Source: Bacteroidales bacterium Bact_19 | Lineage (GTDB): Bacteria; Bacteroidota; Bacteroidia; Bacteroidales; ML635J-15 | Reading direction: 5' to 3' | Assembly: GCA_001603595.1 (NCBI GenBank) | Contig: LUZK01000026.1 | Span: 1 to 64,000 of the forward strand | Length of the DNA stretch: 64,000 bases | Shown here: in pieces, positions 35,940 through 62,371 of the stretch | How the letters are laid out: every line of letters starts with the position of its first letter | Position numbering within the stretch: the stretch's first letter is position 1 | Translations under genes and position numbers: made by a program | Notes under the pieces: generated by a model | What the model was told of the DNA's origin: nothing | What the model saw: only the letters and a program-made list of their open reading frames with translations | The model's database searches: none

Positions 35940-37112
35940 ATGCTTAACATTGCTTTATTCGGACCTCCCGGTGCAGGAAAAGGAACACAAGCTAAAAGAC
36001 TCGCTGAAAAATACAATCTAACCTACATTTCAACAGGCGATATTCTACGAAGGGAAATTGCTGAAGGAACTTCTTTAGGACTTGAAGCTAAGTCAATCAT
36101 CGAACAAGGTGGTTTGGTTTCAGATGAAATAATTGTTCAAATCATTGAGAGAAGCATAAGAATGAATCCGGATTCTAATGGTATTCTTTTCGACGGGTTC
36201 CCACGTACTTATGCTCAAGCTTATATCTTAGATGGATTATTGCTGAAAATGAACACCAAATTGTCCTGTTTGTTAAGTCTTGAGGTGCCAAGAGATGAAC
36301 TTGTTAAAAGAATGATGCTCAGAGCCGAAAAGGAAGCTCGTGCCGACGATAAAATCGAAATTATCGAAAATCGTCTCAGAGAATACGATATTAAAACTGT
36401 TCCGGTAATTGATTTTTATAAAAATCAAAATAAATTTTATCCAATTAACGGAATAGGAACAGTTGATGTAGTGTATGAAAGACTTACAAATACCATTGAA
36501 GAAATACTTGCTCAAACTTTGTTAAATGTTGTTTTCTTCGGACGACCCGGAGCAGGAAAAGGAACCCAGGCAAAACGCATAGCCGAAAAATTCGGACTCG
36601 AATACATTTCAACCGGCGAAATGATCCGACAAGAAGTTGCCGCGCAAACAGAACTTGGAAAAATTGCTCAACCCTATCTCGAAAAAGGAGATATTGTTCC
36701 GGATGACGTAGCTATCAGGCTTATTGAGCGTAAACTAGCCGAAACAAAGAATGCCAAAGGATTTATTTTTAAAGGATTTCCTTCAACCCTTGTTCAGGCA
36801 TACATACTTGGTGGTTTGTTGAAAAAATTAGATTCTTCGGTTTCTGTGGTGATTGAATTAAAAACATCTACCCTTCAAGCTATGAAGAGACTCACCGCCA
36901 GATCAAAAACAGATAAAGCAAGAACCTACGACCTCAATCCCGAAACTATAATCCATCGCCTCGAAGTATTTCAGGATCGAAGTGAAAAAATAAGGGATTT
37001 TTATATTCAACAAAACAAACTTATCAGCTTTAATGGAGATCAAGACGCTGAAACTCTAAACAAACAAATCGAATCCGTAATTGAAAAAGCTTTTAAGGAG
37101 ATAAGAAAATAA
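35940..37112 (+). CDS. adk: adenylate kinase, tandem two-domain
   Basis: Two P-loops (GPPGAGKGTQAKRLAEKYNLTYISTGDILRREI and GRPGAGKGTQAKRIAEKFGLEYISTGEMIRQEV) in one ORF. Confidence 0.9.
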   Translation: MLNIALFGPPGAGKGTQAKRLAEKYNLTYISTGDILRREIAEGTSLGLEAKSIIEQGGLVSDEIIVQIIERSIRMNPDSNGILFDGFPRTYAQAYILDGLLLKMNTKLSCLLSLEVPRDELVKRMMLRAEKEARADDKIEIIENRLREYDIKTVPVIDFYKNQNKFYPINGIGTVDVVYERLTNTIEEILAQTLLNVVFFGRPGAGKGTQAKRIAEKFGLEYISTGEMIRQEVAAQTELGKIAQPYLEKGDIVPDDVAIRLIERKLAETKNAKGFIFKGFPSTLVQAYILGGLLKKLDSSVSVVIELKTSTLQAMKRLTARSKTDKARTYDLNPETIIHRLEVFQDRSEKIRDFYIQQNKLISFNGDQDAETLNKQIESVIEKAFKEIRK

Positions 37113-49140: not shown

Positions 49141-49881
49141 TTGAAGCTTAGTAAAGAAAATATTAACGCTATTCTAGGAACAATTTTGTTTCATCTTATT
49201 ATCGTTATTATTCTTTTAGTAAATAAGATTCAATCCTTAACAATTCATGAAGAAACCTACATGATTATTGAGCCTGAATATATTGAGGAAATCACAAAAA
49301 AACCTGTTGAAGAAAATATTCTTGGCGAAGATTTTAATATTCAGGACTATATTAATGAATTTAGAAACGTAGCCTCAAACAATCCTGTGCAATATCAAAA
49401 ATTTGAAGCAATGTCGGAAGATGAGCTTAGAAAATATTATGAAACACAATTTTTAAATGAAAAATACGGAGATAATCCAATAAGATATCAAGATAAAAAT
49501 CAGGGGAATCAAGATAAACAGGAAAACAAGGAAAACTCTAAAAATGATAAATCTAAAAATGAGAATAATAATTCCGACAATTATCAAAATTATTCTGGTC
49601 CTGCACTGGTATTTGTAGAGCTTGAAAATCCCAAGAGGGGCAAAATATATATTGAAGTACCTGTATTTACATGCCGTCATGGTGGTAAAGTAGTTGTGGA
49701 TATTCTAATTGGCTCGGATGGCAGAGTTCGTTCTGCTAACGTTATTTCAGCAAATTCATCAGGTGATGCTTCGTGCATTTCTGAAGCTGCTTTAAGAGCT
49801 GCAAGAAATTCAAGATTTACCATGATATCAGGAGGCAAAAACGAAAAAGGAAAAATAACATATACTTTTATTGAACAATGA
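49141..49881 (+). CDS. TonB-like energy transducer protein
   Basis: TTG start, N-terminal TM, low-complexity linker, C-terminal GGKVVVDILIGSDGRVRSANVISANSSGDASCISEAALRAARNSRF. Confidence 0.75.
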   Translation: MKLSKENINAILGTILFHLIIVIILLVNKIQSLTIHEETYMIIEPEYIEEITKKPVEENILGEDFNIQDYINEFRNVASNNPVQYQKFEAMSEDELRKYYETQFLNEKYGDNPIRYQDKNQGNQDKQENKENSKNDKSKNENNNSDNYQNYSGPALVFVELENPKRGKIYIEVPVFTCRHGGKVVVDILIGSDGRVRSANVISANSSGDASCISEAALRAARNSRFTMISGGKNEKGKITYTFIEQ

Positions 49882-50654
49882 AATACAATTTTAGTACAAT
49901 CCAAACCGATAAAAATAATGAAATTAGATGGATAAAACTTAATAATCCATTGAAATATAATAAGATAAGCAAATTATTTATAAATGAACTTGAAGTTATT
50001 TTCGACCATTGCATTAATGAAAATGATTTAAAAGCAGTTATAATTTATAGCGATGATAAAGTATTTTCGGCAGGAGGCGACTTAAAAGAAATAGCTGGTG
50101 CAGATTATAAACAAGCTGAATTGATGTGTTCGAGGGTTCAATCAGTTTTCAGAAAACTACATTCCATACCGGTACCGGTTATTTGTTGCTTGAAAGGAAT
50201 TGTTTTCGGGGGTGGGCTTGAGCTTGCTCTGCATTGCGATATAAGATTTGCCGACAAAACCACAGTGCTAAAAATGCCCGAAACTGATTTAGGGCTCATT
50301 CCTGGTGCAGGAGGAATAACTTTACTTTCTAAATATCTAAGTCCTGCTGATACTTTTTATTATTTATCTATCGGAAAAGAAATCCCCTTAGAAAAAGCTA
50401 TTTATAAAGGTTTGCTTCAAGAAATAATTGAAGATGAAGATGTGATTAAATACGGTTTTGATTTTGCAGAAAAATTAGCTGTAAAACCAAAAGAATCTTT
50501 AACTGCTTTAAAGTCTGTTCTATATACAGCTCTATATAATGACACACTTGCCGGTTTAGATGCAGAAATAAAAGAATTCAGTTCTGTTGTTCAACTTTGT
50601 GGCAATAAAAAGATAGAAATGTTTTTTAAAGATAAAAAGAATAAAAATGAGTGA
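49878..50654 (+). CDS. enoyl-CoA hydratase/isomerase family protein
   Basis: FSAGGDLKEIA, CCLKGIVFGGGLELALHCDIRFA, MPETDLGLIPGAGG (both catalytic Glu positions kept). Confidence 0.9.
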   Translation: MKYNFSTIQTDKNNEIRWIKLNNPLKYNKISKLFINELEVIFDHCINENDLKAVIIYSDDKVFSAGGDLKEIAGADYKQAELMCSRVQSVFRKLHSIPVPVICCLKGIVFGGGLELALHCDIRFADKTTVLKMPETDLGLIPGAGGITLLSKYLSPADTFYYLSIGKEIPLEKAIYKGLLQEIIEDEDVIKYGFDFAEKLAVKPKESLTALKSVLYTALYNDTLAGLDAEIKEFSSVVQLCGNKKIEMFFKDKKNKNE

Positions 50655-52497
50655 TAGCTATATCTTTACTGGAATACATTTTGTAACCGGACAGTATAAA
50701 ATCAGCAATTCAGAAATTCAAAAAGCCATCGAATCAGGTATTTTAGAAGGATTCGATCAAAATCGCATAAAAGAATCTGATGAATTCAAATCACAATCAG
50801 ACTTAAACGAATTTGAATTTTTATGCAAAACACTTATGGGATTTGAATTTCGGTATCACGTTGTACCATTTCCACCGGATTTTAATCACATGGAAGAAGC
50901 AGAAGACGTAGTTTCACTATGCGTCAAAGCCACAGAAAATGTTCTTCAAAAAACCGGACTTAAAGGAGACGATATTGATGCATGGTTTGCAAGCACTGCT
51001 ACACAATCGCATATTACTCCAGGAATAGCAGAATTTATTAAATCTTATTTTACGGGCATACACAATCAAAAGCCAACATATTCATTAACATCTGCTTGTG
51101 TTGGATTTAACATCAACCTTGAAAATGCCATAAATTATTTTAAAAACCATCCTGAAGCCAATCATATTTTAATAGCTCATGGAGAGATTATGTCATCCTT
51201 GCTAACTAAAGAAAGAGATTTTGTTCCTTATGTAACTTTTGGGGATTCTGCAGCAGCAGTGGTTCTTTCACGTGTTAAAACAAAAAAACAATGTGGCGTT
51301 ATTGCAATTACCAATCATGAAGATACAACAATGATTGACTTTTTAGCTTCTGATTCAAAAGGAAATCTGATAATGAATCCCAGAATGGTTAAAAACAGAG
51401 CCGTACCAAATATTACAAAAGCTTTCAAAATAATCGAAGAAAAAAGTCAAACTGGATTTGTTGATGTTGACATTTTTATCCCGCATCAAACAGGAAATGC
51501 AATTGTTGACAGTGTTGTAAAAAACTTGAATCTTGACCAAAATAAAGTTTTCAAAGACATTCAAATAAAGTATGGAAATCTCTCAGGAGCCTCAATTCCT
51601 GCGGCATTTTGCGAACTTGAAAATCAAAAAAAACTATTACCCGGCATAAAAGTTTTTACTGCTGTAGCAGGACTTGGTGGAGAATTTGGGGGCTTTTCCT
51701 ATATTGTTCCGGAAGAAAAAATTAAGTTTGATTCTAAAAAAGAATTGGAAGGTAAAACTATTCTAATTACTGGAGCTTCAGGAGGATTAGGCAAAGAAAT
51801 AGCTCTATGTGCTGCTGAAAATTCTTGCTCAAACATATTGCTTCAATATAATTCCGGCTCAAAGGAGGCATTAAGTATTAAGAAAAAAATCGAATCTGAA
51901 TTTGGATTATGTTGCAGAATATACAAAGCAGATTTATCAAACGAAAAAGAAATAAAAAACTTTAAATCAAACATTTTAAGTAACTTTAAATCAATTGATT
52001 ACCTAATTTGCACACATGCTATTACCGGTCCACTTGCAAAAGCAGGCGAAACTTCAATTGAAGAATATATAAGAGTTATGGAAGTAAATTATCGGTCTGT
52101 TAAAAATAGCGTTGAGATTTTTGCTGATTCAGTAAAAGAATGTGTATTAATTACAGGTTCGGTTGGCGAAGATGCACAATTTCCCGGGTCTGCTCCTTAC
52201 GTTGCTTCAAAAAGAGCTTTAAGAGCATTTGCTAGAGAATTTGCAAATACTTTATATCAACGAAATGTTAGGTGTATTTATTATCTGCCGGGTGTTATTG
52301 ATTCGGGAATGGTAAGCATTTTAAATGAACAACAAATAAGTGCTTCATTACAAGCAATAAGACAAAAAAAACTTACACCGGTAAGAGAAATAGCTCGCAG
52401 AATTTTGCATTCTACCTACAGACTTAATGTGCCTAATGTTCGCAGAAGTATGGAGTCGAAACTAATTGTAATAAAAGATTCTTATCGGAATTATTAA
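50647..52497 (+). CDS. fusion: KASIII-like 3-oxoacyl synthase + SDR ketoreductase (copy 1)
   Basis: KASIII Cys SACVGF, His IPHQTGN, Asn YGNLSGASIP; SDR TGASGGLG, HAITG, YVASK. Confidence 0.88.
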   Translation: MSDSYIFTGIHFVTGQYKISNSEIQKAIESGILEGFDQNRIKESDEFKSQSDLNEFEFLCKTLMGFEFRYHVVPFPPDFNHMEEAEDVVSLCVKATENVLQKTGLKGDDIDAWFASTATQSHITPGIAEFIKSYFTGIHNQKPTYSLTSACVGFNINLENAINYFKNHPEANHILIAHGEIMSSLLTKERDFVPYVTFGDSAAAVVLSRVKTKKQCGVIAITNHEDTTMIDFLASDSKGNLIMNPRMVKNRAVPNITKAFKIIEEKSQTGFVDVDIFIPHQTGNAIVDSVVKNLNLDQNKVFKDIQIKYGNLSGASIPAAFCELENQKKLLPGIKVFTAVAGLGGEFGGFSYIVPEEKIKFDSKKELEGKTILITGASGGLGKEIALCAAENSCSNILLQYNSGSKEALSIKKKIESEFGLCCRIYKADLSNEKEIKNFKSNILSNFKSIDYLICTHAITGPLAKAGETSIEEYIRVMEVNYRSVKNSVEIFADSVKECVLITGSVGEDAQFPGSAPYVASKRALRAFAREFANTLYQRNVRCIYYLPGVIDSGMVSILNEQQISASLQAIRQKKLTPVREIARRILHSTYRLNVPNVRRSMESKLIVIKDSYRNY

Positions 52498-52529
52498 TAA
52501 TTAAAAAATACAATCAAAAATTATTCATA

Positions 52530-54347
52530 ATGAAGCATATAAATTACATATTTAGTGGCTTTGGTTATTCACACGGTAAATACAAAATCTCCAATAAGGA
52601 CATACAAGATGCGATAAGTAAATCTTTTCTGTCAGGTTTTAAAGAAGACAGAATCTCAGAAAGCGAAAACTTTTTAAAATATAAAGCTAACAATCCTGAT
52701 GCAAGAGCTTTTGATTATTTTGTGACCGAAATTATGGGTTTTTACGAAAGATACCATGTGAGTCCATTCCCGCCCACACGCAAAAAGTTGTTTTATTCAG
52801 AAACATCATTAGATTTAGCGGTAAAAGCAGTAGAAAACTGTTTGATTGACGCAAAAATAAAAGCTGAAGAAATAGATGCATGGTTTGTCAGTACAGTTTC
52901 ACCTCAACAAAAAGCTCCCGGAATTGCAGCAAATGTAAAAGCATTCTTTGTTGAAAGTTCTAATTACACACCGGCATTTAGTCTTCAGAGCGGATGTGCA
53001 GGTTTTTTATTGAATCTCCAAAGAGCAATTGAATGGTTGAATTCACATCCCGAAGCAAAAAATGTTGTAATTGCTCACAGTGAAACAATGTCTTCGTTCT
53101 TGACTCAGAGAATTAAGTTTGTGCCTTTTGTTACATTTGGGGATGCTGCTGCTGCCGTTGTTTTAACAAAAATAGAATCAGAAGAAAAATTTGGTATTAT
53201 TTATTTGAATAATTATCAAGACCAATACATGCTTGATTTTGTGGGTGTTGATAAGAACAAAAATTTATATATGGACGACCTGTTAATAAAAGACAGGGCC
53301 ATAAAAAACATTACCGATTCAGTTGTTGATTGTCTTAAAGCTACAAATCATAAAATTGAAGATATTAGTTTTTTCGTTCCTCACCAAACCGGTAATGCAA
53401 TTATTTTTCCAATAGCTAAACATTTTTCAATTCCTAAAGAAAAAATTATTCTATACGGGCAACACAAATACGGAAATGTATCGGGAGCTACTATTCCAAT
53501 AACTTTAGCTCTGTTGCAGGAAAATAATGAGCTTTACGATGGTTCCAAAATTTTATGTGCCACTGCTGGTGTAGGGGGCAATTTTGGAGCATTTTTGTAT
53601 TCACATAAAATCACAGAAAAACCTAAAGAGTTTTACCTATACGAAAATGATTTTAAGAATAAAACCTGCCTTGTATTGGGAGCTTCAGGACATATTGGTT
53701 CACAATTAGCAATAGAACTACAAAAAAGAGGAGCTGATTTAATTTTACAGTATAATTCTGCTCCTCATAAAATTGAAATTTTTAAAAATCATATTCAATT
53801 AAAATGTGATTTAAAAAAAGAAACTGATGTTGATAAGTTTATTAATCATTTACAAAACCTCAATTCCAAAATTGATTACGTTTTTAATCTTGCAGGAACC
53901 ACTGAGGCGAACGATTCAATGCAAGTTAATTTTTATTCACCGATTAAAATATTTAACAATCTAATTAGTAAAATAAAATCAGCAATAATTCAATTAGGAA
54001 ATTCATCTGAAGATTTTGCTTCAAACGATTGCTATGAATGGGCTGCATCCAAAAGAGCTCTACACGGATATTTAGCATCGGCAAGTGGCGAATTCCTTAA
54101 ATACGGGATAAAGATTATTTATATCCAGTCAGGATTTACAAACCAAGGTATTTTTACTAAATTACCCGAAAAGTATATATTTAAGACAATGTTATTGTCA
54201 GGACAGGATGATAGTATAAAAACAGATATTCTTGTGAACAAAATTGTCAATTCTCCGTATAAATCAAAAGTTTTAGGTATGAGATCCTCTTACGAAAATG
54301 CAATGTTGCTTTATCGTTACGGATATCATCAAGATGTTGACATTTAA
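52530..54347 (+). CDS. fusion: KASIII-like 3-oxoacyl synthase + SDR-like domain (copy 2)
   Basis: KASIII Cys SGCAGF, His VPHQTGN, Asn YGNVSGATIP; SDR GASGHIG but WAASK at the YxxxK position. Confidence 0.86.
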   Translation: MKHINYIFSGFGYSHGKYKISNKDIQDAISKSFLSGFKEDRISESENFLKYKANNPDARAFDYFVTEIMGFYERYHVSPFPPTRKKLFYSETSLDLAVKAVENCLIDAKIKAEEIDAWFVSTVSPQQKAPGIAANVKAFFVESSNYTPAFSLQSGCAGFLLNLQRAIEWLNSHPEAKNVVIAHSETMSSFLTQRIKFVPFVTFGDAAAAVVLTKIESEEKFGIIYLNNYQDQYMLDFVGVDKNKNLYMDDLLIKDRAIKNITDSVVDCLKATNHKIEDISFFVPHQTGNAIIFPIAKHFSIPKEKIILYGQHKYGNVSGATIPITLALLQENNELYDGSKILCATAGVGGNFGAFLYSHKITEKPKEFYLYENDFKNKTCLVLGASGHIGSQLAIELQKRGADLILQYNSAPHKIEIFKNHIQLKCDLKKETDVDKFINHLQNLNSKIDYVFNLAGTTEANDSMQVNFYSPIKIFNNLISKIKSAIIQLGNSSEDFASNDCYEWAASKRALHGYLASASGEFLKYGIKIIYIQSGFTNQGIFTKLPEKYIFKTMLLSGQDDSIKTDILVNKIVNSPYKSKVLGMRSSYENAMLLYRYGYHQDVDI

Positions 54348-54355
54348 TTGATTGT

Positions 54356-57670
<3,315 letters not shown>

Positions 57671-60490: not shown

Positions 60491-62371
60491 TTAAATAGGA
60501 AACTCTCTCAATAACTCATGAACGCCTTTATGAATTTCATACCAAAAATCATAAGCAGCTTCATGCTTATTTTCTTCGAAACGTTTCACCCAATAATCAA
60601 GTTCGGAATTATTCTTTTCGGTCTTTTGTTTAAGTTTTAAAAATGTAAAGACATAGTCAATATTTCTTTCTGATTCCCAGAAAACGCTGGAGTTACGGCT
60701 ATTAATTCTACTAGCAGCCAAATCAATTGATTTTAAAAATCCCTCTTTGTCTCCAAACAATTTCTGCACTATATCAGGCATAATGTCTTCTGCCCATGCT
60801 CTATGGAATCTGCAAATACCAAGATTGTCGAGAATAAGTTCTTTTTTCATTCTAGTTGCAGATATTCTTCCTAATTCACGTGGAGAGAAAAATGCTCTGC
60901 CATAATCGTTGTAGTATTTTCCCATAATACCCATTGGAGACAAAACTCCGGGAGTCCAATACTGATTTGGCACCATCCAACCTTGGCGAGCAAATGCGGT
61001 ATAAACAAATTTATCCATTATTTCTTTTGAAATGCATTTTGCCCAAGCTCTTGCAATTTTACGGGCACCAAGGCTCAAATCTATTTTTGATTCCGGTTTA
61101 ACTATTTCATCAAGTAAAGCAATTGCCAAATTTGCATTGTGCATAGAATCATTTACCAGATCAAAATTATTTACATCCCATTTTGGTTTTCCTTTAACAC
61201 CGAGCTCTTCTTCGCCGAGTAATCCTGAATCCATGCAATCCAACAACCAAGCTAAAACCCCACCGATGGAAATTGCATCAAATCCTAAACTATCGGCCTT
61301 ATGATTTAATTTTTCTGCAGCACGTTGGTCGAAGATTCCACAAAGTGGTCCCATTGTATGATATGGTTCGTAATCTTTTTTAAATTCATCTTTCATTTTT
61401 TTACAAACAGCAACACAAGGCTCACCACAATTTTTGAATTGTTTGGGCATTATTGTTTCTTCATTAAACTGTGCCAGATAATGATCGAGAACAAATTCCT
61501 TGTGTATTTTGAGTCTTTCTTCACTTGACCAGTAAATAGTTCTGTAATTGAAAGCAGTCATGTGTTCGCCTAATGAAGCATAATTAACACCGAATGTGCC
61601 ACCAGTGTTAAAATTCGGGTCATATCTGTATTTTGTTGTTGCTTCAAGATCTTTTGCCGACAATTTTTTATTATATCTATCTTCGAACCATTGATCTGCA
61701 ACTTTTCGGTCACGGAAGTCCTCGTCAACAAATGTTCCACCATAAATCACAGCAGCAATTCCATGTTCTGTTAGAAGTTTAGTTCCAAAACCTCCTCTAC
61801 CTGCCCAGGTATCTACATAAGTCAGTAAACCTTTTTTTACAGGTGCCGAGCAAATAGCTCCTATATCCGTATATTTTGATGCCGGACCAACGGCTAAAAC
61901 TCTTGGGTCTTCTTCGTATCTGTCGCCAAAAAGATTTAAAGCATGTTGCATCATAGCATAAACCCCTTTTCTGCCTTGTTGCCACACCTTATCAACATCA
62001 ACAGGAACAATTTCTATCTGAATTTCTTCACCATGAATACGGTTAAGATATAAAATTGAAGGAGTTACAGCTTTTCCCTTGATTGAAAGCATATTTATCC
62101 CCAAATTATCGAATACAAGACCTGCACCACCCATACTCGAAATATAAAAGCCATGCCAGCAAGGACTTATGCCGGTAAATATAAGACGATTAGACCCAGG
62201 GAAAATTGAGCCTGCCAATAATCCAGTGCCAATGTTAAGACTATTATGTTTATATGCCAAATGTAATCCTAAATCAACAGGTCCCCAAAATTTTCCGATA
62301 TTGAATCGCATGGTTTTATAAAATCCGCTGCCTGCATCAATCATTAAAGTTTTTAACTGTGATTGTAACAT
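60491..62371 (-). CDS. aldehyde ferredoxin oxidoreductase family (tungsto/molybdo-pterin) protein
   Basis: GAGLVFDNLGINMLSIKGKAV, GRGGFGTKLLTEHGIAAV, CGEPCVAVCKK, KADSLGFDAISIGGVLAWLLDC, LGICRFHRAW. Confidence 0.9.
   Translation of the reverse strand: MLQSQLKTLMIDAGSGFYKTMRFNIGKFWGPVDLGLHLAYKHNSLNIGTGLLAGSIFPGSNRLIFTGISPCWHGFYISSMGGAGLVFDNLGINMLSIKGKAVTPSILYLNRIHGEEIQIEIVPVDVDKVWQQGRKGVYAMMQHALNLFGDRYEEDPRVLAVGPASKYTDIGAICSAPVKKGLLTYVDTWAGRGGFGTKLLTEHGIAAVIYGGTFVDEDFRDRKVADQWFEDRYNKKLSAKDLEATTKYRYDPNFNTGGTFGVNYASLGEHMTAFNYRTIYWSSEERLKIHKEFVLDHYLAQFNEETIMPKQFKNCGEPCVAVCKKMKDEFKKDYEPYHTMGPLCGIFDQRAAEKLNHKADSLGFDAISIGGVLAWLLDCMDSGLLGEEELGVKGKPKWDVNNFDLVNDSMHNANLAIALLDEIVKPESKIDLSLGARKIARAWAKCISKEIMDKFVYTAFARQGWMVPNQYWTPGVLSPMGIMGKYYNDYGRAFFSPRELGRISATRMKKELILDNLGICRFHRAWAEDIMPDIVQKLFGDKEGFLKSIDLAASRINSRNSSVFWESERNIDYVFTFLKLKQKTEKNNSELDYWVKRFEENKHEAAYDFWYEIHKGVHELLREFPI

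Follow-up and report, generated by a model that had tools for sequence, protein, structure and literature searches.

In bacterial type II fatty-acid synthesis, condensing enzymes and reductases are normally separate proteins, exemplified here by FabH (KASIII) and by FabG, a classical SDR. Specialised condensing enzymes composed of two different FabH-like subunits also occur beside the normal FASII: PqsBC, the Pseudomonas quinolone signal synthase, is the heterodimeric precedent (PMC4807248). A KASIII-like condensing enzyme working together with an SDR is found in the long-chain olefin (beta-lactone) pathway, i.e. OleA plus OleD, and KASIII and SDR genes lie side by side in a biosynthetic cluster of the Streptomyces plasmid NZ_CP107820.1. 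The locus analysed here belongs to a 64,000-nt stretch (the window) of contig LUZK01000026.1 from Bacteroidales bacterium Bact_19. It can most safely be described as a pair of KASIII-SDR fusions that is restricted to certain lineages, stems from an ancient duplication and is coupled to a crotonase; the three genes are named KAS1-SDR, KAS2-SDR and ECH (Table 1).

The module resembles FabH in fold and in its Cys-His-Asn triad, but differs by its fused SDR, by an N-terminal insertion of 24-30 residues, by the replacement of W32, R151, R249 and F87 and by a low identity (~20-26%); furthermore, the host has a canonical FabH of its own. The KAS1 SDR is similar to FabG in its Rossmann motif and Ser-Tyr-Lys residues, but it is fused behind a KASIII domain, and its KAS2 paralogue is without the catalytic residues in most lineages. 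With PqsBC the module shares the use of two different FabH-like subunits; the heterodimer is known for PqsBC and proposed for KAS1/KAS2, the gene distribution of the module being compatible with it. PqsC, however, uses Cys-His without Asn and PqsBC has no SDR domains, whereas both partners of the module keep the full triad. The Ole system has separate genes, an extended SDR, OleB and OleC, and no crotonase, and no such Ole partners were identified beside the module. The Streptomyces pair (the only match in plasmid records, unfused) consists of separate proteins at ~26% identity, and genes for ACP, AMP-ligase and PPTase lie close by. No description of a KASIII-SDR or FabH-FabG fusion was found in the open-licence literature, and no solved protein of KASIII-SDR architecture figures among the Foldseek PDB matches listed.

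Table 1. Genes of the module, its immediate neighbours and the ALDH-like genes found between KAS1 and KAS2 in other genomes
Feature	Position	Strand	Remarks
TonB C-terminal domain protein	49141..49881	+	neighbour outside conserved module
ECH, crotonase-family protein	49878..50654	+	258 aa; catalytic Glu115 and Glu135; ECH_1 4e-44
KAS1-SDR	50647..52497	+	616 aa; KASIII ~aa 1-358, FabG-like SDR ~aa 366-616
KAS2-SDR	52530..54347	+	605 aa; KASIII ~aa 1-360, degenerate SDR ~aa 375-605
Tricorn-like S41 peptidase	54356..57601	+	neighbour outside conserved module
ALDH-like gene between KAS1 and KAS2	L046:5412-6641		
ALDH-like gene between KAS1 and KAS2	L073:10526-11743		
ALDH-like gene between KAS1 and KAS2	L076:5654-6904		
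ALDH-like gene between KAS1 and KAS2	L077:9399-10649		
ALDH-like gene between KAS1 and KAS2	L105:9521-10786		

The positions of the three consecutive genes, the fusion architecture, the C-H-N triad of both KAS copies and both Glu residues of ECH had been recognised in an earlier, sequence-only reading of the window, and all of these hold. The Pfam matches above cut-off were ACP_syn_III (6e-9), ACP_syn_III_C (8e-19) and adh_short (1e-26) for KAS1, and the same three (4e-10, 9e-19 and 3e-14, respectively) for KAS2; the two fusions are 34% identical to each other. AlphaFold2 single-chain models of KAS1-SDR and KAS2-SDR each display two confident domains (mean pLDDT of 92.1 and 92.2, pTM of 0.90 and 0.92). 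Because full-length tandem homologues exist in relatives (E down to 0) and the two-domain models are confident, the fusion pair is not a product of chance. The junctions were also as previously given (TonB/ECH overlap of 4 bp, ECH/KAS1 overlap of 8 bp, KAS2/S41 gap of 8 nt), save that between KAS1 and KAS2, where the gap is 32 nt and not 33. In a Pfam scan of ~30 other ORFs of the window, nothing emerged that could serve the module as an acyl-transfer, thioesterase or ligase partner; an LpxB gene is present at the far end. Two other genes of the window may be mentioned. The 390-aa protein encoded at 35940-37112 (+), right behind a phosphoribosyltransferase gene, gives two adenylate kinase matches, as if an adenylate kinase had been duplicated or fused, and an aldehyde:ferredoxin oxidoreductase family protein is encoded at 60491-62371 (-), ~6 kb downstream of the module.

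To determine how far the pair extends, genomes were sampled at several taxonomic levels. The KAS1 query matched in 30 of the 31 sampled genomes of the window's family (the exception is 73% complete) and revealed no fusion in 30 genomes of other Bacteroidales families; a match in one genome (G337) was discarded, being ordinary separate FabH and FabG genes with a stop codon between them. With a profile of both paralogues, the fusion was found in 15 of 393 sampled Bacteroidales genomes, distributed over five families (f1, f69, f192, f200 and f223). No fusion was detected in 296 further genomes sampled from the phylum or in 344 further ones sampled from the class; the distant profile was applied to genomes of this phylum, and a wider distribution is possible. 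A relative at 92% identity is an uncultured Bacteroidales MAG. Tandem conservation, a question raised by the sequence-only reading, is supported: both paralogues occur in 14 of the 15 carriers of the order sample, and they are adjacent and on the same strand in most carriers. Exceptions include G908 (92% complete), where only one of the two was detected, and the f200 genome G710 and the f223 genome G733, where they are on different contigs, unlinked in the former and apparently so in the latter. Sporadic ORFs of 81 to 125 aa lie between KAS1 and KAS2 at two loci (L040 and L041). An apparent single KAS1-KAS2 protein of 1094 aa in G325 (L047) was rejected since it results from a run of N in the assembly. 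In the tree of KAS domains (47 rows), KAS1 and KAS2 fall on opposite sides of one branch, with support that is moderate on the KAS2 side (90/75) and weak on the KAS1 side (46/69). As all five families are represented on both sides, the simplest reading of the tree would be a single duplication predating them.

The triads are C151/H280/N311 in KAS1 and C156/H285/N316 in KAS2, and Asn is the third residue in every copy covering that position. Since it is Asn, and not the Cys of thiolases, decarboxylative condensation fits. The motif around the nucleophile is SACVGF, or a close variant, in KAS1 and SGC[AS]GF in KAS2 (AGC in L073). The top Foldseek PDB matches to both fusions were FabH structures, 2ebd first, with a TM-score by target of 0.90-0.92; they span the KAS half alone (TM-score by query of 0.45-0.50). 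BioZ structures appeared merely as generic FabH-like matches and a BioZ (biotin) identity was rejected. The best NCBIfam profiles were PRK09352 and TIGR00747, at 117-140 bits, i.e. below the curated cut-offs of 249-292.

The entrance of the KAS site departs from that of FabH. The KAS domains were aligned with the host's own FabH and with E. coli FabH (catalytic numbering checked by script); one row was gapped in each paralogue group. C112, H244 and N274 (E. coli FabH numbering) are preserved, and in all KAS1 and KAS2 rows covering them W32 is replaced by M, F or L, R151 by F or Y, and R249 by A, V or I. These are the CoA- and ACP-contact residues of FabH, Arg249 being the one for ACP docking. 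The R151 and R249 columns are secure, as they adjoin ungapped motifs (FGD and PHQ); that of W32 is less certain, lying beside the 24- to 30-residue N-terminal insertion, which is near the entrance. The gate residue F87 is Ala or Thr in 45 of 45 KAS rows. The host's own FabH keeps all four canonical residues. With the contact residues gone, the substrates may well differ from the standard ones of FabH. Arg36 and Arg151 have been placed in the CoA/ACP site of PqsD, and a small residue at position 87 is reported to accompany long-chain substrates or primers (PMC3734052); the Ala/Thr found at the gate would favour priming by medium- or long-chain acyl groups.

The two SDR domains have diverged. 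In the window, that of KAS1 possesses both the GxxxGxG motif (TGASGGLG) and Ser-Tyr-Lys (S505/Y518/K522); its best profiles are FabG models, and the three residues are kept in 22 of the 22 rows covering them. One oddity is genus g142 (L045 in G322 and L048 in G326), where Ser-Tyr-Lys is kept and the Rossmann glycines are altered (GATGELA and GSTGDLA). In the KAS2 SDR of the window, Ser is replaced by N491, Tyr by W504 and the middle Rossmann glycine by H388, with K508 kept. Ser-Tyr-Lys is complete in only 4 of 23 KAS2 copies, which come from f192 and f200; at least one of the three residues is lost in f1, f69 and f223, and f223 is also without the Rossmann glycine motif. The earlier supposition of two ketoreductases is not supported, since 19 of 23 KAS2 copies, that of the window among them, have lost catalytic residues, and reductase activity of this domain is predicted to be absent in most lineages. 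The tree, together with the differing modes of loss, suggests at least two separate losses of the site, with the caveat that deep branches are weakly supported. The domain is nevertheless retained: its dN/dS is 0.28 for the window versus L006, which denotes a selection that is purifying but more relaxed than that on its neighbours, and 0.08 for L038 versus L040. The retention of a non-catalytic domain under purifying selection suggests a structural role, which would be expected if both SDR domains pair with each other.

The coupling of the fusion pair to ECH, proposed from the gene overlap, is borne out in relatives: in four of the five families ECH is the gene immediately preceding KAS1, both catalytic Glu are present without exception in 18 of 18 homologues and the ECH tree broadly follows that of the genomes. 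ECH is a frequent, not an obligatory, neighbour of the module. It is not adjacent in f200, where similar genes exist elsewhere in the genomes, and at the cut-offs applied none was detected in G318. Within the window's genus, one clade (L109:6302-9641, L110 and L111) has a cyclophilin gene in its place upstream of KAS1, and the ECH orthologue is beside lysine 2,3-aminomutase and KamB genes (lysine fermentation). The inclusion of the TonB-like and S41 peptidase genes in the operon fared less well. A TonB homologue is beside the module only in L006, from a near-identical genome, and the S41 gene, although probably co-transcribed, adjoins the module at eight loci, all in part of the window's family; with so restricted a distribution, neither is a member of the module. 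A gene of the ALDH family (~410 aa) lies between KAS1 and KAS2 in five genomes of three families (f69, f192 and one f1 genus; Table 1) and was not detected in the window's genome. Judged against the classical and CoA-acylating ALDH motifs, it has Ala at the catalytic Cys position in 5 of 5 cases (GQAAVC) and GxGN in place of ELGG; the protein is possibly another pseudo-enzyme, or else a partner with a specialised function.

The host genome contains an ACP gene (C51) next to a 416-aa gene, probably fabF by its position, and the canonical FabH gene is beside PlsX. Hence the label 'ACP-less' is unsupported: the organism has an ACP, and the absence of one from the window is uninformative. The genome has one thiolase, one acyl-CoA dehydrogenase and no second ECH at E<=1e-15, which makes a role in beta-oxidation unlikely; the module does not belong to a beta-oxidation set, nor is it the FASII of the host. 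The only thiolase is encoded in one cluster with KamC and the alpha subunit of lysine 5,6-aminomutase (L114, G000:C162), and the host is probably a lysine-fermenting Bacteroidales.

From the above we infer, with about an even chance of being right, that ECH, KAS1-SDR and KAS2-SDR form one module, a heteromeric condensing and ketoreducing synthase feeding a dehydratase; the direction of the reactions, the chain length, the substrate carrier and the class of product belong to the same model. KAS1-SDR and KAS2-SDR would be the two subunits, the KAS domains pairing as in FabH dimers and the reductase domains assembling as SDR-type dimers or tetramers. The KAS centres would carry out a decarboxylative condensation on a medium- or long-chain acyl primer, giving a beta-ketoacyl thioester that the KAS1 SDR would reduce to the 3-hydroxyacyl thioester; the KAS2 SDR would now be structural only in most lineages, as its loss of Ser-Tyr-Lys and its dN/dS values suggest, and the crotonase would dehydrate the product to the 2-enoyl thioester, or equilibrate the two. 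The condensation, reduction and dehydration logic of the sequence-only reading is thus plausible for KAS1-SDR, whereas KAS2-SDR would supply a second KAS site together with an SDR of structural function. Counting against this scheme are the unlinked paralogues of G710 and, apparently, G733, the single paralogue of G908, and an ECH that is non-adjacent in f200, beside lysine-fermentation genes in one clade and undetected in G318 at the cut-off applied, as well as the missing CoA- and ACP-contact residues and the altered KAS1 Rossmann glycines of genus g142. More tentative, and in our estimate doubtful, is the stricter version in which the synthase is an obligate heteromer with a pseudo-enzyme reductase and a KAS entrance rebuilt away from canonical ACP docking and the FabH CoA clamp.

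The complete triad in both KAS domains would also suit two independent, homodimeric bifunctional enzymes with different chain-length preferences, performing successive or parallel rounds of elongation. The two intact SDRs of f192 and f200 and the dispersed genes of G710 and G733 point the same way, but KAS2 would in most lineages be unable to reduce what it makes (no Ser-Tyr-Lys in 19 of 23 copies), its SDR is still under selection and the partner is retained, so that we regard such enzymes as rather unlikely. The entrance invites another reading, in which the KAS domains, instead of condensing malonyl units, transfer, hydrolyse or join acyl groups head to head (like CerJ, DpsC or OleA) and the SDR then reduces the keto product as OleD does: the carrier-contact residues of FabH are lost in all copies, the insertion lies close by, and KASIII plus SDR recalls OleA plus OleD. 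It is unlikely given that FabH profiles are clearly the best and OleA structures score weakly, that the SDR is of the classical short FabG type and not of the extended OleD type, and that neither OleB nor OleC was encountered next to the module; moreover, an ECH is not known to have a place in the Ole pathway.

Two further possibilities concern the place of the module in metabolism. Hydroxy and iso acids are abundant in the lipids of Bacteroidales, and the host's FabH-PlsX and its ACP beside the probable FabF could take over 3-hydroxyacyl or 2-enoyl primers, for instance for the hydroxy fatty acids of membranes or lipid A. An accessory primer module for ordinary FASII is however very unlikely, its patchy presence (15 of 393 genomes of the order) being unlike a housekeeping lipid supply and the ACP-docking Arg249 of FabH being absent. 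A catabolic, beta-oxidation-like chain of hydratase, 3-hydroxyacyl dehydrogenase and thiolytic cleavage would agree with ECH as a CoA-type enzyme, with the ability of SDRs to serve as 3-hydroxyacyl-CoA dehydrogenases and with the ECH orthologue beside lysine 2,3-aminomutase and KamB in one clade. Thiolases, though, use Cys-His-Cys, and here a FabH fold carries Cys-His-Asn; with a host genome devoid of a beta-oxidation gene set, this explanation is highly improbable.

To conclude, a conserved and diverged KASIII-SDR pair, in which one reductase is apparently dead but kept, would offer a natural example of type II enzymes becoming a mixed multifunctional machine. It points to an acyl product new for Bacteroidales, and the module may be devoted to making an unusual lipid or signal. 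If the obligate heteromer proved true, self-contained elongation enzymes would gain a new class, the product of which would be a lipid or signal new for Bacteroidales.
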